Source: Beijerinckiaceae bacterium
GTDB lineage: Bacteria > Pseudomonadota > Alphaproteobacteria > Rhizobiales > Beijerinckiaceae
DNA length: 64,000 nt
Reading direction: 5' to 3'
Assembly: GCA_009773635.1 (NCBI GenBank)
Contig: WSYC01000009.1
Span: forward strand, 1 to 64,000
In this document: one piece after another, positions 24,885-33,212 of the stretch
How the letters are laid out: each line of letters starts with the position of its first letter
Numbering within the stretch: position 1 is the stretch's first letter
The notes under the pieces: generated by a model
The model's database searches: none
Told to the model about the DNA's origin: nothing
What the model saw: the letters and a program-made list of their open reading frames with translations, nothing else
Made by a program: the position numbers and the translations under genes

Positions 24885-26405
24885 TCATGCGCATTGCGCC
24901 ACCCGATCAGTCGTGGCGGCCTGCGCTGCTGCCAACCGCTCGCGCAGCACCGCGCCGATGAGCACGAGTGTCGGCCCCGGCGCTGTTTCCACTACGCGTG
25001 CCGGCAAGGCATCAAGCCGCGCGGTGATCTCGCGCTGGTTCGGTCGCGTCGCATACGTGATGGCGGTCGCCGGGGTTGCCCCCGGCAGGCCCGCCGCGAT
25101 GGCCCGGGCCACGAAAGCGGCGAGCGTGCCGCGCGGCATGTAAAGCACCGTTGTCGCGCCGGGGTCGGCGATGGCCGCCCAGTTGATATCAGCCGGAAGT
25201 TTGCCATCCTCGCCATGCCCGGTGAGGAACTGGACACGGCGCGCGACCTTGCGTTCGGTGAGCGATATCCCGAGCGCGGCGGCAACGCCTTGCGCGGCGG
25301 TGATGCCGGGGATGATCTCAACCGCAATACTAGCCGCACGGCACGCGGCCAATTCCTCCGAGGCGCGGCCGAACACAAGCGGGTCGCCCCCCTTCAGCCG
25401 CACCACGCGCTTGCCCTGCCGCGCGAGGCGCACCATGACATCGTTGATCTCGCCCTGCTTGCAGGAGGGACCGTGCCCGGTCTTGCCGACAATCATGCGC
25501 TGGGCCTCGCGGCGGGCGAGTTCCAGCACTTCGGCGGAAACAAGATCGTCGAACAGGATGATATCCGCCGCCTGAAGCGCGCGGACCGCCTTCAGCGTCA
25601 GGAGGTCGGGGTCACCCGGCCCGGCGCCGACAAACGTCACCTGACCGGTCGCCGGCTGGTTTGCATCCCCCGCGAAAGCCTGCATCAGCGCATCGCGGTC
25701 GGCCTCCTCCGGCGCACGGTCGGGCGCGGCGAGGGCGCGACTGGTGAAGCGCTCCCAGAAGCGCCGCCTCAGCGCATAGTCCGGCCGTTTGGCCTGCACG
25801 AGCGGACGCCAATCGCGTGCCGCTTTGGCCCAGGCGGCGAGCCCGCGCGGCAGCAGGGCCTCGATCTTGGCACGAATGGCCTGCCCGAATACCGGTGCAG
25901 CGCCATCGGTCGAGATCGCGATCACGAGCGGCGAGCGGTTGACGATTGCGCCGAACTGGAAATCGCAGAACGCGGGATTGTCGATGATGTTGACGGGAAC
26001 TCCGGCGTGTCGCGCTGCCGCAACGAAGCCCTCGATGTCGCGGGGATCATCGAGATCGGCGATCGCGAGCGCAGCGCCTTCCAGATCGCTTGGCCGCCAG
26101 GGACGAGGGGTGATCGCAAGCTGTCCGAAGCCTTCATCCTGTCGCCCGGCGAGGCTTTCCGCCAGCGCGGCGAAGGGGGCGATATCGGCGTCCTCACCGG
26201 CGAGAACAACGACATTCGCGCCGGCGGCCGCGAGGAGTTCCGCTTTCCAGCGTGCGCCCTCGGTCGCGCCGGCCAGAACGACACGTCGACCATGAAGTTT
26301 GTGAAACACCGGCAGTGTCGCGAGCGGGGCAATCCGGTCCGGCAAGGCGATGCCGGGCTTGCGGGCGGAGGGCTTGCGGGCGAGGAGCTTGGGGGCTGTG
26401 GTCAT
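24885..26405 (-). CDS. cysG: siroheme synthase (uroporphyrinogen methyltransferase/dehydrogenase/ferrochelatase)
   Basis: This is a 506-aa CysG that makes the siroheme needed by the sulfite reductase of this operon. The N-terminal precorrin-2 dehydrogenase/ferrochelatase part is LPVFHKLHGRRVVLAGATEG to about residue 230. The C-terminal SUMT part contains VTFVGAGPGDPDLLTLKAVR, the VVRLKGGDPLVFGRASEE motif and EIIPGITAA. The ATG at 26405 was chosen because it starts the family alignment. It also overlaps the stop of a 34-codon gene (ATGA, 26402-26405). The open frame to 26624 would run antisense-like through that gene. This is the last gene of the sulfate operon. Confidence 0.92.
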   Translation of the reverse strand: MTTAPKLLARKPSARKPGIALPDRIAPLATLPVFHKLHGRRVVLAGATEGARWKAELLAAAGANVVVLAGEDADIAPFAALAESLAGRQDEGFGQLAITPRPWRPSDLEGAALAIADLDDPRDIEGFVAAARHAGVPVNIIDNPAFCDFQFGAIVNRSPLVIAISTDGAAPVFGQAIRAKIEALLPRGLAAWAKAARDWRPLVQAKRPDYALRRRFWERFTSRALAAPDRAPEEADRDALMQAFAGDANQPATGQVTFVGAGPGDPDLLTLKAVRALQAADIILFDDLVSAEVLELARREAQRMIVGKTGHGPSCKQGEINDVMVRLARQGKRVVRLKGGDPLVFGRASEELAACRAASIAVEIIPGITAAQGVAAALGISLTERKVARRVQFLTGHGEDGKLPADINWAAIADPGATTVLYMPRGTLAAFVARAIAAGLPGATPATAITYATRPNQREITARLDALPARVVETAPGPTLVLIGAVLRERLAAAQAATTDRVAQCA

Positions 26406-26506
26406 AGGATGCGCTCCGGCGGGAAGATCAGCCAGAGTGCGGTCATGGCGACGATCAGGAGCCTGAAGGCCCAGTCGATCAGCTGGATCGGCCGTTCCGG
26501 GGTCAT
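26402..26506 (-). CDS. 34-residue membrane peptide between cysN and cysG
   Basis: This is a short gene with very good local evidence. The ATG at 26504-26506 overlaps the cysN stop as ATGA, the stop overlaps the cysG start as ATGA, and GGAGG lies seven bases before the ATG. The product starts MTPERPIQLI, has one hydrophobic segment at about residues 9-29 (ending in ALWLIFP) and ends PPERIL. Such four-base coupling on both sides is unlikely by chance. It is predicted to be an inner-membrane peptide. Because CysN ends in a DUF2061-like membrane domain, the two may interact (inference). I know of no named family for it. Confidence 0.72.
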   Translation of the reverse strand: MTPERPIQLIDWAFRLLIVAMTALWLIFPPERIL

Positions 26507-28137
26507 ATGCCGCCTCCATCGATGCCAAGGGCTGGCGGAACTGGGCGATGCCGCGTCGCCAACCCGAGTTGCCAGAGTCGATCATGCAGCACACGCAAAG
26601 CGGGCCTGAGAACGAGATCAGCAAACCCGGCTCCGAGCGCGATCGTCACGCTGCCGGTAACGGCCAGCGCGAGACCCGCGAACAGCAGGGCGCTGGCGAT
26701 CCGCCAGCTGATGCGGTGCATGACCTCGTCGCGGCTCGCACCAGGCACGATCAATCCTGCCGCCAGCGCGATGCGCCCGAAAGCGGTGGCTCCTGCGCGT
26801 GCCTGAACGGTCTTCTTGTCTCCAGCATCGGCTGCGGTGTGTTCAACCGTGCCGAGCGCGACCGCTTCGTTGGTCAGCGGATCAATCAGCAGCAGGGAGC
26901 CGAGGGTCCGGCAGTCGGCGTATCGCGTGGCATAAATCGGGGTTTCGATGTGCAGCGTTGCGAGCCCGAGGGCATTCATGGCGAGTTCTGCGGCCGGGCG
27001 TTCGGTGTAATCGTGAACGTCGATAGCGTGATGCAGCGCAATGAGGCGCGCGCCGGTCACGGCCGTGCCGAGCTTGATGAGATAGGGTTTGCCGGGAACA
27101 ACGGCGGTTTCGCTGAGCGCGAGCAACCGCGCTGTGACGCGCCGGGTAGCCTGCCCCGAGGCGACGAGAACATCGCCACGGCTGATATCGATCTCGTCTG
27201 CGAGGGTGAGCGTGACCGCCGCACCCGCGCCAGCTGATTGGGCATCTCCCGAGGGGGTGAGAATGCGGGCGATACGGCTCGTCCGGCCGCTCGGCAGCGC
27301 GACGATGCTGTCGCCGGGGCAGATCTCGCCGGAGGCGATGGTGCCGGAAAAGCCACGAAACTCCGCATTCGGGCGGTTGACCCACTGGATAGGCAGGCGA
27401 AATTTCGCATCCTCACCCGTCGATGTCTCGATGGTCTCAAGCAGGGTGAGGAGGCTCGGGCCAGAATACCACGGCATCATCGCCGAAGCCTTGGCCACGT
27501 TGTCGCCTTCGCGCGCCGAGAGCGGCACGAAATGGACAGTTGTAAACCCGAGGCCCGGGATCAGCGCGCGATAATCCGCCTCGATGCGCCTGAAGGTGGC
27601 CTCGTCGTAGCCGACGAGATCCATCTTGTTGATCGCGATGATGACATCGCGCACGCCGATCATCGAGACGATGCAGGAATGCCGCCGCGTCTGCGCCAGC
27701 AGTCCCTTGCGGGCATCAATGAGGATCACAGCGCAATCGGCGGTCGAGGCACCAGTCGCCATGTTGCGCGTGTATTGCTCGTGGCCGGGGGTATCCGCCG
27801 CAATGAAGGCGCGGTTGGCGGTCCCGAAGTAACGGTAGGCGACGTCGATGGTGATTCCCTGTTCGCGCTCGGCGGCAAGGCCATCGACGAGCAGTGCGAG
27901 ATCCGGTGTATCGCCCGTAGTGCCGAAACGCCGGGAATCGTTCGCGAGGGCTTCGGCCTGATCCTCGAACACCGAATGGGTTTCCCAGAGCAAACGTCCA
28001 AGCAGCGTCGACTTGCCGTCATCCACCGAGCCGCAGGTGATGAAACGCAACAGCGATTTGGAGGCGGGTGCCGGAACCGGCGCAACGGCAGGTCCGAAGC
28101 CGGTCTCGGGTTGACGCTGGAGGGCAGCGGTGCGCAT
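26503..28137 (-). CDS. cysN: sulfate adenylyltransferase subunit 1 fused to a DUF2061-like membrane domain
   Basis: This is a 544-aa CysN, the GTPase that energises APS formation by CysD. GTP motifs are GSVDDGKST (36-44), DTPGHE (115-120) and NKMD (170-173), followed by EF-Tu-like beta domains to about residue 430. Many alphaproteobacterial CysN proteins end in an APS-kinase (CysC) domain. Here the tail from about 466 (SRDEVMHRISWRIASALLFA, then a second hydrophobic helix and LRVLHDRLWQLG) instead looks like DUF2061, a two-helix membrane domain. APS kinase is not needed if CysH reduces APS directly, which its cysteines suggest. The start shares a base with the cysD stop. Confidence 0.9.
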   Translation of the reverse strand: MRTAALQRQPETGFGPAVAPVPAPASKSLLRFITCGSVDDGKSTLLGRLLWETHSVFEDQAEALANDSRRFGTTGDTPDLALLVDGLAAEREQGITIDVAYRYFGTANRAFIAADTPGHEQYTRNMATGASTADCAVILIDARKGLLAQTRRHSCIVSMIGVRDVIIAINKMDLVGYDEATFRRIEADYRALIPGLGFTTVHFVPLSAREGDNVAKASAMMPWYSGPSLLTLLETIETSTGEDAKFRLPIQWVNRPNAEFRGFSGTIASGEICPGDSIVALPSGRTSRIARILTPSGDAQSAGAGAAVTLTLADEIDISRGDVLVASGQATRRVTARLLALSETAVVPGKPYLIKLGTAVTGARLIALHHAIDVHDYTERPAAELAMNALGLATLHIETPIYATRYADCRTLGSLLLIDPLTNEAVALGTVEHTAADAGDKKTVQARAGATAFGRIALAAGLIVPGASRDEVMHRISWRIASALLFAGLALAVTGSVTIALGAGFADLVLRPALRVLHDRLWQLGLATRHRPVPPALGIDGGGI

Positions 28138-29039
28138 CAGAAATAGCCTTCCTGTTTCTTTTTCTCCATTGAGCTCGCGCCATCGGCATCGATGATCCGC
28201 CCCTGCCGCTCCGAGACACGGCTCGCCCGCATTTCTGCGAGAATGCCGGGGAGGGTTGCGGCCTCGCTCTCTACCGCGCCGGTGAGCGGGTAGCAGCCGA
28301 GCGTGCGAAAACGGACCATGCGGGTCTCGATCGTCTCGCCGGGCAGGAGAGTGAAACGCTCGTCATCCCGCAGGATCAGCGCGCCGTTGCGCACCACCAC
28401 CGGGCGGGGCTTCGCGAAATAGAGCGGCACGACCGGGATATTTTCCTGGGCGATGTAGTCCCAGACGTCAGCCTCGGTCCAGTTCGAGAGCGGGAAGACG
28501 CGGAAGCTCTCGCCCTTCGCCTTCCGGGTGTTGAACAGCGCCCAGGGCTCCGGCCGCTGCGCTTTCGGGTCCCAGCGATGATCGGGGGTGCGCAGCGAGA
28601 AGACGCGCTCCTTGGCGCGGCTTTTTTCCTCGTCGCGCCGCGCGCCGCCGAAGGCCGCGTCGAAGCCGAATTTGTCGAGCGCCTGCTTCAGCCCTTGCGT
28701 CTTCATCACGTCCGTATGCACCGCCGAGCCATGGCTCTGCGGGCCGATGCCCTGCGCCAGCCCCTCCGGATTGATATGGACGAGGAGGTCCAGCCCCAGC
28801 CTTTTGGCCGTGGCATCGCGGAACTCGATCATCTCGCGGAACTTCCAGCCGGTATCCACATGCAGCAGCGGAAACGGCAGCTTGCCCGGCGCGAAAGCCT
28901 TCATCGCAAGATGCAGCAGCACGGCGGAATCCTTGCCGATCGAATAGAGCAGCACCGGCTTTTCGCAGGTGGCGGCAACCTCGCGCAGGATGAAGATCGC
29001 CTCGGCTTCGAGCTTCTGGAGATGGGTCAAGGGCTTCAT
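28137..29039 (-). CDS. cysD: sulfate adenylyltransferase subunit 2
   Basis: This is a 300-aa ATP-sulfurylase catalytic subunit that forms APS from sulfate and ATP together with CysN. The PP-loop SIGKDS is at residues 33-38. Further family blocks are [20 protein letters not shown] and [20 protein letters not shown], and the C-terminal [20 protein letters not shown]-type end. The start overlaps the cysH stop by 4 nt and the stop touches cysN. Length is normal for CysD. Confidence 0.95.
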
Positions 29040-29782
29040 GTCCGCGCCTCCACCAAAACGCCTGAACGCACTAGCTTGCCATCAGCCCCGACATGGAGGC
29101 CGCATTCCTTGGCGGCGTCGTTCTCCCACCACCAGCGCCCGGCGCGTTCGTCCTCGCCCGGCTGAAGCGCACGAGTGCAGGGCTGGCAGCCGATGGAGAG
29201 GAAGCCCTGCGCATGCAGCGGGTTCACCGGCACGGCATTCGCGCTCGCGAAGGCCACGGCCTTCTCGCGGCTCCAGTCGATCAGCGGGTTGACCTTGAGA
29301 AGCCCGAAGCCGGCATCAAACTCTGCTACGGACATCGAACCGCGGTTTGCAGATTGCCCGGCGCGCAGGCCCGTGATCCAGACTGCTGCACCGGCCAGCG
29401 CCCGCTTCAGCGGCTCGACCTTGCGTGCCCCGCAGCAGGCCTTGCGCGCCTCGACCGAGAGGACAAACCCGTTGATTCCCTGATCGGCAAGCAGGGCTTC
29501 CACGTGTTCGCGTTCAGGAACAAAACCCCGGATGCGCTGGCCGTAACGCATCTCGGTCTCGGCCCAGAGGGTGTAGGTGTCCGGAAACAGCCGGCCCGTA
29601 TCGAGGGTTGCGACCTCGATATCGAGATTTTCTGAGAAGATAAGCTGCGTCAGCACCTGATCCTCAAGACCGAAGCTCGTCGTGAAGACGATCCGGCCCG
29701 CGATGCGGTCGCGAACCAGCTTCAGGCGCTCGAGCGGGGTCTTCGGCAGAAGCACGGCGGCGATGGTGGTGACATCAACCAT
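29036..29782 (-). CDS. cysH: adenylyl-sulfate reductase (thioredoxin-dependent APS/PAPS reductase family)
   Basis: This is a 248-aa reductase that turns activated sulfate into sulfite. The ATG at 29782 has GGAGGGG just upstream; the open frame to 29845 was not used. PP-loop-like [11 protein letters not shown] is at 34-44. The cysteine set C116-C117 ([11 protein letters not shown]) and C199/C202 ([10 protein letters not shown]) binds a 4Fe-4S cluster in APS reductases and is missing from PAPS-specific CysH of E. coli type. Substrate is therefore probably APS, consistent with the absence of an APS kinase domain. It overlaps DUF934 (8 nt) and cysD (4 nt). Confidence 0.93.
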
Positions 29783-30290
29783 TGCGCCCCTCCAGCCGCG
29801 CGGCGCGGCGCTGATCGAGAATGCTGGCCTCGCGGGCATAGCCACGCTGGTAGGTGGCGGAAAAGGCGGCGGCAGCCTTCACCCAGTGCTCGGCAGGCTG
29901 GCGCGCGGCATTGGCCTCCGGCAGTTCCACCTCGTCAAATCCGCAGGCGAGCGCATAGGCGAATTGATCCGCGATCAACGGACCGATCGCGCGCAGCGTG
30001 CCGGTAAATCCGTCCCGACGCAGCCGTTTTGCGAGGCTGAAGCCGCGCCCGTCGGCATAGGCCGGGAAAGCGATGCCGATCAGCGCCAGCGCGTCAAAAT
30101 GCGGCGCCAGCGCCGCGATCTCGACCGTGTTGGCGATCTCGACGCCGATCTCCTGATCGCCGCGAACCGCGAGGACGGCGGGCAGATCAGCCAGAGAAAC
30201 CAGAACGCACGGATGGTCTGTGGCTTCGCCGCTGTTGAAACGGTGGAATCGATCGGCGACAAAGCGCCCCCCGGCATCAAGCAGCGGCAT
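29775..30290 (-). CDS. DUF934 protein of the sulfite reductase operon
   Basis: This is a 171-aa soluble protein of family DUF934, found almost always next to ferredoxin-type sulfite reductase and cysH genes. Its biochemical role is not established. The ATG at 30290 was chosen because AGGAGA lies nine bases upstream and the protein starts MPLLDAGGRFVADRFHRFNS; the reading from 30824 is antisense-like frame into the reductase gene. Conserved blocks are FPAYADGRGFSLAKRLRRDG and GTLRAIGPLIADQFAYALAC then GFDEVEL. It overlaps the sulfite reductase by 14 nt and cysH by 8 nt. Confidence 0.85.
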   Translation of the reverse strand: MPLLDAGGRFVADRFHRFNSGEATDHPCVLVSLADLPAVLAVRGDQEIGVEIANTVEIAALAPHFDALALIGIAFPAYADGRGFSLAKRLRRDGFTGTLRAIGPLIADQFAYALACGFDEVELPEANAARQPAEHWVKAAAAFSATYQRGYAREASILDQRRAARLEGRNG

Positions 30291-31947
30291 GGTCGATCTC
30301 CTGCAGAAATGCTGCCTTGAACGGCGCGATGCCGAGCCGGCGAACGGTGTCGATGAAGGCTTCACCGGTGTTTCGCTGACCGAGATAGACCTCCACCAGC
30401 CGCTCGATGGCATCCGGCACTTCGGCGGCGGTGAGACCGGGGCCGAGGATATCGCCGAGCGCGGCGTTCTCGGTGGCATCGCCCCCGAGTGTGATCTGGT
30501 AGCTCTCCTCGCCGCGCTTCTCGAGCCCGAGAATACCGATATTGCCGACGTGGTGATGGCCGCAGGCGTTGATGCAGCCGGAAATCTTGATGCCGAGCGG
30601 GCCGATCTCGCGCTGCCGAGCCGGGTCTGCGAAGCGCTGCGACAGCGCCTGCGCGATGGGGATCGAGCGGGCCGTCGCCAGCGCGCAGTAATCGAGGCCG
30701 GGGCAGGCGATGATATCGGTGATGAGCCCGACATTGGCTTCCGCGAGCCGCGCGTTGCCGAGCGCTTTCCACACGGCGAAAAGATCATCCTGAGCCACAT
30801 GCGGCAACACGAGGTTCTGCGCATGGGTGACGCGCAACTCGCCGAAGGAGTAACGCTCCGCGAGGCCTGCCGCCGCGCGCATCTGCTCCGAGGTCATGTC
30901 ACCCGGCACCGCGCCGATGCCCTTGAGCGAGATCGTCAGGGCAGCATAGCCCGGAGCCTTGTGCGGGGTGACGTTGACATCAGCCCAGGCAGCGAATGCC
31001 GGGTTGGCTGCGCGCGCGGCCTGATAGGTCTGGCTCACCGCCGGGCGTTTCTCGTAAGGCGGGGCTGCGAAATACGCCGCGATGCGTGCCACTTCTTCCC
31101 GGTCAGCGTTGATTGTGGTGCGATCGAGTGCGGCGAATTCCGCTTCGACCCGCGCCTGGAATTCCTCGATCCCGATCTCATGGACGAGGATCTTCACCCG
31201 CGCCTTGTACTTGTTGTCGCGCCGCCCTTCGGCGTTGTAGACGCGCATCAGGGCTTCGAGATAGGCGAGGAGATCACCCTTCGGCAGGAAGTCGCGCACG
31301 ACCTTGCCGATCATCGGCGTGCGGCCGAGCCCGCCACCGACGATGATCTCGTAGCCGGTCTCGCCGGCGGTGTTTCTGACGATGCGGAGGCCGATATCGT
31401 GCACCTTCACGGCTGCACGATCATGCGCCGCGCCGGTGACCGCGATCTTGAACTTGCGCGGCAGGTAACTGAACTCGGGGTGCGCGCTCGACCATTGCCG
31501 GATCAGCTCCGCCACCGGGCGCGGGTCCTCGATTTCATCGGCAGCGACGCCGGAGAACTGGTCCGCCGTCACGTTGCGGATGCAATTGCCGGAGGTCTGG
31601 ATGCAGTGCATTTCGACATCAGCCAGAAGGTCGAGAATTTCCGGCACATCGCGCAACCGCGGCCAGTTGAACTGGAGGTTCTGCCGCGTGGTGAAATGGC
31701 CGTAGCCGCGATCGAACTTCTCACCGATCAGCGCGAGCTGGCGCAACTGACGCGCCGAAAGCGTGCCATAGGGAATGGCGATCCTGAGCATATAGGCGTG
31801 CAGTTGCAGGTAGACGCCGTTCTTCAGCCGGAGGGGCTTGAACTCGTCCTCGGTAATGGCACCGGAAAGGCGACGGTTCACCTGATCACGGAACTGGGCG
31901 ACCCGTTCGCGCACGAAGCGCTCGTCGAATTCATCATAGCGATACAT
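30277..31947 (-). CDS. cysI: ferredoxin-type assimilatory sulfite reductase (nitrite/sulfite reductase family)
   Basis: This is a 556-aa siroheme/4Fe-4S reductase. The ATG at 31947 starts the family sequence (MYRYDEFDERFVRERVAQFR), and an upstream TTG gives only seven more residues. N-terminal FTTRQNLQFNWPRL is the siroheme-side motif. The cluster ligands are CPGLDYC (C415, C421) and CINAC (C458, C462). No flavoprotein (CysJ) gene is present. Electrons probably come from the ferredoxin and ferredoxin reductase encoded upstream in the operon. Nitrite reductases share this fold, but the cysH/D/N/G neighbours point to sulfite. Confidence 0.93.
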   Translation of the reverse strand: MYRYDEFDERFVRERVAQFRDQVNRRLSGAITEDEFKPLRLKNGVYLQLHAYMLRIAIPYGTLSARQLRQLALIGEKFDRGYGHFTTRQNLQFNWPRLRDVPEILDLLADVEMHCIQTSGNCIRNVTADQFSGVAADEIEDPRPVAELIRQWSSAHPEFSYLPRKFKIAVTGAAHDRAAVKVHDIGLRIVRNTAGETGYEIIVGGGLGRTPMIGKVVRDFLPKGDLLAYLEALMRVYNAEGRRDNKYKARVKILVHEIGIEEFQARVEAEFAALDRTTINADREEVARIAAYFAAPPYEKRPAVSQTYQAARAANPAFAAWADVNVTPHKAPGYAALTISLKGIGAVPGDMTSEQMRAAAGLAERYSFGELRVTHAQNLVLPHVAQDDLFAVWKALGNARLAEANVGLITDIIACPGLDYCALATARSIPIAQALSQRFADPARQREIGPLGIKISGCINACGHHHVGNIGILGLEKRGEESYQITLGGDATENAALGDILGPGLTAAEVPDAIERLVEVYLGQRNTGEAFIDTVRRLGIAPFKAAFLQEIDHAAA

Positions 31948-31957
31948 GGTGTCTGCC

Positions 31958-32875
31958 TCAGGCTGCAAGTGCGCGGTAGAGGGTGAAAATCGAGAGCGTC
32001 ATGATCAGTCCGCCAATCAGCACCATCAGCGCGCGGCGGTTGATGCGGTGCGTCAGTCTGGCGGCGAAAGGCGCAACAATGAGCCCGCCGAGAACCAACC
32101 CGGCGACGCTTTCCCAGTGCTGGATGCCGATCAGCACGGCGAAGGAAAAGCCGCTGGCCAGGGTGACGAAGAATTCAGCAGCATTGACCGAGCCGATTGT
32201 GGTCTTCGGCTCATGGCCGGAGCCGATCAGCGTCGTCGTCACCACCGGGCCCCAGCCGCCGCCGCCGACCGAATCGGCAAAACCGCCGAACAGCGCGACA
32301 GGGATGAGGCGATTGCCGATCACAGGTGTGAAGTGCACGGCCCTGAACGCCCGAAAGATGATGTAGAGCCCCATGAGCAGGAGATAGCCGGCGATCCAGG
32401 GGCGCAGTGTATTACCGTCGATCGATGTGACCAGCGCCACCCCGGTGACGGCACCGATAATGCCGGGAATGAGGATGCGTCCGAAGATGCGTTTGTCGAT
32501 ATTTCCAAGCCGCCAATGCGCCACGCCGGATGCCGCCGTAGTGAAGGCTTCCGCAACATGAACGGTTGCCGTTGCCGCCGCCGGAGAAATCCCGGTCGCC
32601 AGCAGCAGCGAATTCGACGTGATGCCATAGGCCATCCCGATCGCGCCATCGACGAGCTGCGCGGCAATCCCGACCCCCAGCGCCTTCAGGAAAGCCGCCA
32701 GATCGAACGACCCGGATGCACCGGAGCGGAAAATCCACAGGCTCAGGAACCCCGCGAACACCAGAATCACGGCGAGAGACAAGGCGCGCGCAATCCGGGG
32801 CGAGAGGCGCGCGATATGCGCCTCGTCGATTGCAAGGGCCGGGATGGAAAGCGTTGGTCCTGCGGGCTCAGTCAT
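31958..32875 (-). CDS. TSUP family transporter (TauE/SafE-like)
   Basis: This is a 305-aa inner-membrane protein with about eight hydrophobic segments. TSUP proteins carry sulfite, sulfate or organosulfonates. The ATG at 32875 gives a short cytoplasmic lead and then LSLAVILVFAGFLSLWIF as the first membrane helix; the reading from 33166 is a shadow of the DUF2849 gene. Two repeated halves each carry a glycine-rich motif (DGAIGMAYGITSNSLLL; GFADSVGGGGWGPVVTTTLI). It overlaps DUF2849 by 8 nt and ends 10 bp before the reductase. It may import sulfate or export excess sulfite; the sequence does not decide. Confidence 0.88.
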   Translation of the reverse strand: MTEPAGPTLSIPALAIDEAHIARLSPRIARALSLAVILVFAGFLSLWIFRSGASGSFDLAAFLKALGVGIAAQLVDGAIGMAYGITSNSLLLATGISPAAATATVHVAEAFTTAASGVAHWRLGNIDKRIFGRILIPGIIGAVTGVALVTSIDGNTLRPWIAGYLLLMGLYIIFRAFRAVHFTPVIGNRLIPVALFGGFADSVGGGGWGPVVTTTLIGSGHEPKTTIGSVNAAEFFVTLASGFSFAVLIGIQHWESVAGLVLGGLIVAPFAARLTHRINRRALMVLIGGLIMTLSIFTLYRALAA

Positions 32876-33212
32876 GGGCTGCGTCCCTGATCGCGGGGAA
32901 CTCAGCCTGTTTGCCAAGATCGGGCCGGATGCTCGGCCCCAGGATCCTAAAGCGTTCGCGGAAGTGCCGAGGCACCGGGATGCCGGCATCGCTGATCTCG
33001 ACATCGACGAGATAGGCATCCACCACATGGTTGCCGGCCATCGCGGTCCTGCCTTCGGCTTCAAGCGCGGTTGCGGATGCCGTGTCCTGCGCGATGAGCG
33101 CCTCGGTGGGATTGCGAGACCAGCCGGTCGCCGTGCGGAAGACGACATCGCCGTCGAGCAGGTCATTCGCGAGTAGAATGGCCGGGAGAGGGGGGAGCTT
33201 TGCGCTGGACAT
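32868..33212 (-). CDS. DUF2849 protein of the sulfate operon
   Basis: This is a 114-aa soluble protein of family DUF2849, typical of alphaproteobacterial sulfite-reductase operons and of unknown function. It has the family's ILLANDLLDGDVVFRT start and LVDVEISDAGIPVPRHFRER middle. It shares one base with the ferredoxin stop and overlaps the TSUP gene by 8 nt, so it is translated with them. Confidence 0.82.
   Translation of the reverse strand: MSSAKLPPLPAILLANDLLDGDVVFRTATGWSRNPTEALIAQDTASATALEAEGRTAMAGNHVVDAYLVDVEISDAGIPVPRHFRERFRILGPSIRPDLGKQAEFPAIRDAAHD

Follow-up and report, generated by a model that had tools for sequence, protein, structure and literature searches.

The window, by which I mean the whole analysed stretch of 64,000 nucleotides from a Beijerinckiaceae bacterium, carries on its minus strand a run of genes in the order TauE/SafE, cysI-type reductase, DUF934, cysH-type reductase, cysD, cysN, a small gene, cysG and an Lrp/AsnC-type regulator (Table 1). 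The same genome (G000) holds a second match to CysG, with E <1e-60.

Table 1. Position and basis of assignment of the small gene, its neighbours and the associated sites in the window.
Feature	Positions	Strand	Basis
Small gene, 34 codons, very probable single-pass membrane microprotein MTPERPIQLIDWAFRLLIVAMTALWLIFPPERIL	26402..26506	(-)	translation, homologues, profile, dN/dS, AlphaFold2
GGAGG, Shine-Dalgarno sequence of the small gene, within the cysN codons for DGGGI	26513..26517	(-)	sequence
GGAG preceding cysG, putative site within the final codons of the small gene	26414..26417	(-)	sequence; by eye
cysN, sulfate adenylyltransferase subunit 1, C-terminus DGGGI, last sense codon ATA	26503..28137	(-)	Pfam/NCBIfam; codon table
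DUF2061 domain of CysN, residues 476-523	26569..26712	(-)	PF09834, 29.2 bits against a gathering cut-off of 23.1; AlphaFold2
cysG, full siroheme synthase, start within ATGA overlap	24885..26405	(-)	Pfam/NCBIfam; sequence
cysD, sulfate adenylyltransferase subunit 2	28137..29039	(-)	NCBIfam
cysH-type PAPS/APS reductase, start codon provisional	29036..29845	(-)	PF01507
DUF934 protein, likely start at the methionine of MPLLDAGG	29775..30290	(-)	PF06073; position
cysI-type sulfite/nitrite reductase	30277..31968	(-)	PF01077, PF03460
TauE/SafE gene, at the far end of the gene run from the small gene	31958-33166	(-)	

The small gene begins with the ATG at 26506, 6 nt behind the GGAGG, and its TGA ends at 26402 on the minus strand, giving a protein of 34 amino acids. 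The end of cysN reads ATA TGA, and ATGA is common to the cysN stop codon (26505-26503) and the start of the small gene. A second ATGA is common to the stop codon of the small gene (26404-26402) and the ATG of cysG (26405-26403), the last codon and stop reading CTA TGA. As far as nucleotide sequence can do so, these start and stop overlaps show the small gene to be linked translationally to both neighbours. Opposite cysG and the small gene, the plus strand has an antisense open frame of 571 codons (24894-26609), probably a by-product of the high GC content.

The small protein has a single hydrophobic segment, with a best 17-residue Kyte-Doolittle mean of 2.02; across 15 family members this value ranges from 2.02 to 2.69. 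The AlphaFold2 model (mean pLDDT 80.8, 12 sequences) predicts one helix at residues 5-27, with PP at its end. The charges on either side of the helix are approximately balanced, which makes the orientation in the membrane unsure.

Conservation and selection

In 12 of 19 CysN loci, taken from 61 related genomes, a short open reading frame with a hydrophobic core lies directly behind CysN. A profile of 12 peptides, run against 298 genomes of the family, gave 27 matches with E <1e-5, the next one following at 0.002. For 140 cysG loci (131 distinct), the open reading frames ahead of cysG were compared with a profile of 18 peptides, which retrieved 36 rows (30 distinct), and no further match at the 131 distinct loci up to E 1. 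The homologues measure from 34 to about 80 amino acids, a few relatives having 79-83, and they share the core F-R/K-L-(about 8 hydrophobic residues)-W-(2-3 residues)-P, also seen as F-R/K-L...LW...P, which is conserved behind different upstream genes.

Selection is visible in the frame of the small gene. The dN/dS ratio in this frame is 0.20 across five congeners of five species; eleven Bosea-type genes, compared over their 28-codon core, give 0.24, and three Phreatobacter-type genes give 0.37. In the other two frames of the same clusters, which hold stop codons, the ratio lies between 1.00 and 2.29. These comparisons of coding sequences show that the small gene is protein coding and that its amino acids are maintained by selection. 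Two candidate explanations, that of a chance open reading frame and that of an N-terminal extension of CysG, were ruled out by this frame test.

The overlaps themselves are made with rare codons. In all 17 loci with a small gene behind it, cysN has ATA as its final sense codon, which supplies the start of the small gene, although ATA accounts for only 12 of 647 among the other isoleucine codons of the open reading frames examined. All eight relatives without a small gene behind cysN end this gene in ATT or ATC, as do seven further named loci without it; one such locus ends in ATA, which brings terminal ATA to 1 of 16 in total. That exception, in Rhodoblastus acidophilus (L247), has ATA followed by TGA at the end of cysN and an open reading frame of 9 codons behind it, possibly a remnant. 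At the other end, the base preceding the stop codon of the small gene is A in 26 of 30 loci and G in 3 of 30, giving ATGA or GTGA overlaps, against a third-position background of 8.1% for A; the start of cysG is overlapped by the small gene in 29 of the 30.

Two congeners (L002 and L012) do not have the small gene, and there cysG overlaps the stop codon of cysN as TTGA and uses the same GGxGG stretch. A motif close to DGxGI forms the C-terminus of CysN-DUF2061 proteins even where no coupled gene follows (window 26503-26517; L267, L279, L298, L302, L310). Similar ends, such as YDNGGGI and DGPGSGI, are found in the longer, tail-less CysN of Mesorhizobium, Hyphomonas and Aminobacter. This ending looks like a motif of the protein.

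The earlier note on this DNA had proposed a real short gene that gene finders with a length cut-off would easily overlook, and the homologues together with the dN/dS of 0.20-0.37 bear this out. The GGAGG site, the ATGA overlaps with cysN and cysG and the single hydrophobic segment that it described are all confirmed from the sequence. It had also called the arrangement hard to obtain by chance. The layout of overlaps alone is weak evidence for a gene, because 59% of random 33-codon stretches are open in this window of 64% GC; what places the small gene beyond chance is the comparative evidence, that is, the homologues found by position and by profile, the dN/dS in its own frame and the rare codons that form both overlaps. 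The refuting condition that the note had named, a lack of conservation in relatives at synonymous-site resolution, does not apply: start, stop overlap and hydrophobicity are all conserved. I have very little doubt that the open reading frame is a gene for a membrane microprotein.

Distribution of the small gene and of the CysN tail

The carriers are Hyphomicrobiales: besides Bosea, Phreatobacter and the genus of the window, a small number of further genera in the same family have the gene. At the level of the order, 397 genomes were scanned and 14 matched with E <=0.01: five in the family already known, four Phreatobacter-type (three with E <1e-5 and one, with E 0.003, recognised by its place before cysG) and five more with E 0.009 to 0.01. 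In 289 genomes of the class, 11 matches were found, of which the window's own and that of one congener are strong and the nine others have E 0.001 or weaker. These profile scans, which divergent members can escape, found no further confirmed carrier among the 397 genomes of the order and the 289 of the class. By position alone, a strongly diverged small gene is seen between DUF934 and cysG in two loci (L105 and L115) of the Bosea-type group g12. Plasmids searched with a Bosea-type peptide gave no match, and 92 further CysN loci (80 named and 12 others) showed just two types, both already known (L245 and L313). Two of the records are contained in others, L332 in that of Bosea sp. WAO (L244) and L067 in that of Phreatobacter (L313).

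The small gene occurs in two arrangements, one being CysN-DUF2061 followed by the small gene and cysG, the other, in Bosea and in G117, DUF934 followed by the small gene and cysG. Where CysN-DUF2061 lies directly upstream of cysG, the small gene is present in 16 of 21 distinct loci; where DUF934 does so, it is present in 13 of 25 by profile and in a 14th (L115) by eye. Of the 85 loci with other contexts upstream of cysG, one has it; this is a Phreatobacter contig whose start falls within the small gene. In three Bosea genomes examined (L330-L332) the tailed cysH-cysD-cysN lies elsewhere, in G091 at a distance of 157 kb. As cysN is part of another operon in Bosea, the small gene has no fixed place next to cysN. 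Its place next to cysG is not strictly fixed either, because in G009 it lies behind cysN and no cysG was found within the next 2.3 kb. Downstream of the small gene in that genome (L324, minus strand) there is another short hydrophobic open reading frame, which starts with MAWARLKPLIDILLFVASLVFLIAIVSG. The place before cysG is kept more often than the place behind cysN, and some relatives have lost the small gene while retaining the CysN tail. Its presence or absence, mapped as a label on a CysN tree of 34 rows, needs 7 changes, from which it follows that the gene was often lost or moved.

The tail of CysN is predicted by AlphaFold2 (mean pLDDT of the whole model 74.9) to form a helical hairpin of residues 469-494 and 497-529, followed by a disordered C-terminus. 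A profile built from 15 CysN tails (A3) finds a match in 106 of the 298 genomes of the family. These 106 comprise every one of the 27 genomes that match the small gene strongly and 79 of the 271 others (Fisher P 7e-14, a statistic that ignores relatedness). This co-occurrence is suggestive only, because 10 of the 15 rows of the tail profile come from genomes with the small gene, a bias towards 27 of 27, and because the genomes are related; shared ancestry could be an alternative source of the pattern. The 79 tail-matching genomes without a strong small-gene match indicate that the tail does not need the peptide. In group g12, which has 24 genomes among the matches listed, exactly those 12 genomes that have the small gene match the tail below 1e-10, a split that could go back to a single event on the CysN tree. 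In some genomes the sequence itself shows the tail fused to CysN; in others the fusion was deduced from the length of the open frame, the CysN frame of G007 and G278 being interrupted by a contig end. Around standalone matches to the tail profile in five genomes (L325-L329), none of cysN, cysD, cysG, cysH, cysI and DUF934 was found within the fetched stretch.

Two suggestions of the earlier note are thus upheld in part. Its coupling to cysN and cysG is seen in the overlaps of the window, but the tie to cysN does not extend to Bosea, where the gene stands between DUF934 and cysG with cysN in a different operon, nor the tie to cysG to G009. The link to a membrane-tailed CysN is indirectly supported by the suggestive co-occurrence, though the small gene has no positional tie to cysN and is lost in some tailed relatives.

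Possible role and comparison with known systems

Sulfate activation is textbook soluble chemistry, and annotation frequently overlooks small membrane proteins. From the co-occurrence and the coupling I infer the CysN tail as the partner of the small protein, in competition with CysG and with a transporter. The two-part anchor that the earlier note suggested, for sulfate activation or siroheme synthesis, is a fair hypothesis for which the support is indirect. The reading that I tentatively prefer, giving it a little short of an even chance, is that of an accessory single-pass subunit of a membrane-tethered apparatus for sulfate assimilation, its most likely contact being the CysN tail. The helix of the small protein would then lie in the inner membrane against the two-helix DUF2061 tail, and CysN-CysD (ATP sulfurylase), perhaps with the next enzymes, would be kept at the membrane, for example close to where sulfate is imported. 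In the genus of the window, the coupling by overlaps would match the amount of the small protein to that of CysN and CysG; in Bosea, where its gene belongs to the cysI-DUF934-cysG operon, the small protein would come together with CysN in the membrane.

Alternatively, the peptide may be a partner of CysG, or of siroheme delivery to CysI, that recruits a soluble enzyme to the membrane; its association with tailed CysN would then reflect only the common descent of one type of sulfate operon. The small gene adjoins cysG upstream both behind CysN and behind DUF934, overlaps the cysG start in nearly every locus and in Bosea stays with cysG, apart from cysN. However, about 100 of the 131 distinct cysG loci do without the peptide, the peptide of G009 has no adjoining cysG and the CysN tail is present in every genome with a strong small-gene match, so that I consider this partnership unlikely, if worth keeping in mind. 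Quite improbable is that the peptide serves an integral membrane transporter of the pathway, such as a sulfate permease or the TauE/SafE protein, as a small subunit for regulation or assembly. KdpF and CydX would be precedents, the TauE/SafE gene belongs to the same gene run and in one relative a TauE-like open reading frame, named by eye, lies behind the tailed CysN, but no transporter gene adjoins the small gene in the loci read.

That the open reading frame is a mere translational relay from cysN to cysG, its amino acids being irrelevant, I regard as very improbable. The overlaps at both ends and the GGAG for cysG in its final codons would fit a relay, and the TTGA overlap of cysG with cysN in L002 and L012 indicates that direct coupling works too; against it stand the dN/dS well below 1 in three clusters, the core conserved across different upstream genes and, in Bosea, a start of its own away from cysN. 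A chance open reading frame or a part of a CysG N-terminal extension, for which the many open stretches in GC-rich DNA and, in some relatives, a cysG frame open upstream through the small gene could be cited, has practically no probability left, as selection in the frame of the small gene and not in the other two refutes it at the sequence level, barring systematic error.

Returning to the accessory subunit at the CysN tail, its broader form, in which an undescribed microprotein family and the DUF2061 tail on CysN make up a platform by which sulfate activation, and perhaps siroheme supply as well, is tethered to the inner membrane in Bosea, Phreatobacter and their relatives, is possible but doubtful. 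To my knowledge, a membrane-organised assimilatory sulfate reduction of this kind is known from no organism. Codon selection and the rare overlap codons show that the small gene is genuine and belongs to a core metabolic operon, in named, cultivable genera such as Bosea. If the small protein works with the DUF2061 tail, these bacteria would organise sulfate activation at their membrane, and there would be a function to look for in DUF2061.

The small protein matches no known family. Scans of 18 members found none in Pfam (best E 0.24, COX14, one member) or in NCBIfam (best E 0.016, TraP, one member), PHROGs and PADLOC being outside these scans; among solved structures neither the peptide nor the tail profile had a match up to E 1, and searches of the open literature found no description of the small protein. 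DUF2061 (PF09834) shares with the small protein its short length, its hydrophobicity and its operon, and occurs in all 27 strong-match genomes, but it is a two-helix hairpin where the small protein has one helix. Descent of the small protein from DUF2061 was considered and rejected, as there is no similarity (hhalign probability 0.2, 6 columns). The domain is barely described in the literature, where a search for its name found it in four papers; in two of these, DUF2061 genes appear in tables of iron-responsive genes in Caulobacter (CC_0155) and of SsoR-related genes in Shewanella (SO_4740) (PMC3751524, PMC12442407).

CysX of Corynebacterium glutamicum, a proposed electron carrier of 82 amino acids with four conserved cysteines, is, as described for fpr2-cysIXHDNYZ, likewise encoded by a small gene inside an assimilatory sulfate-reduction cluster (PMC1266029). 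The peptide of the window differs from CysX as described there in having a membrane helix and no cysteine.

A likeness in kind is offered by the small single-pass subunits of transporters and oxidases, of which KdpF and CydX are well known. These have fewer than about 60 amino acids and one helix, and their genes lie in the operon of the complex that they serve; the small protein agrees with them both in size and in its single predicted membrane helix. It differs in having no family match, and in that its neighbours are soluble enzymes, one of them with a membrane tail.
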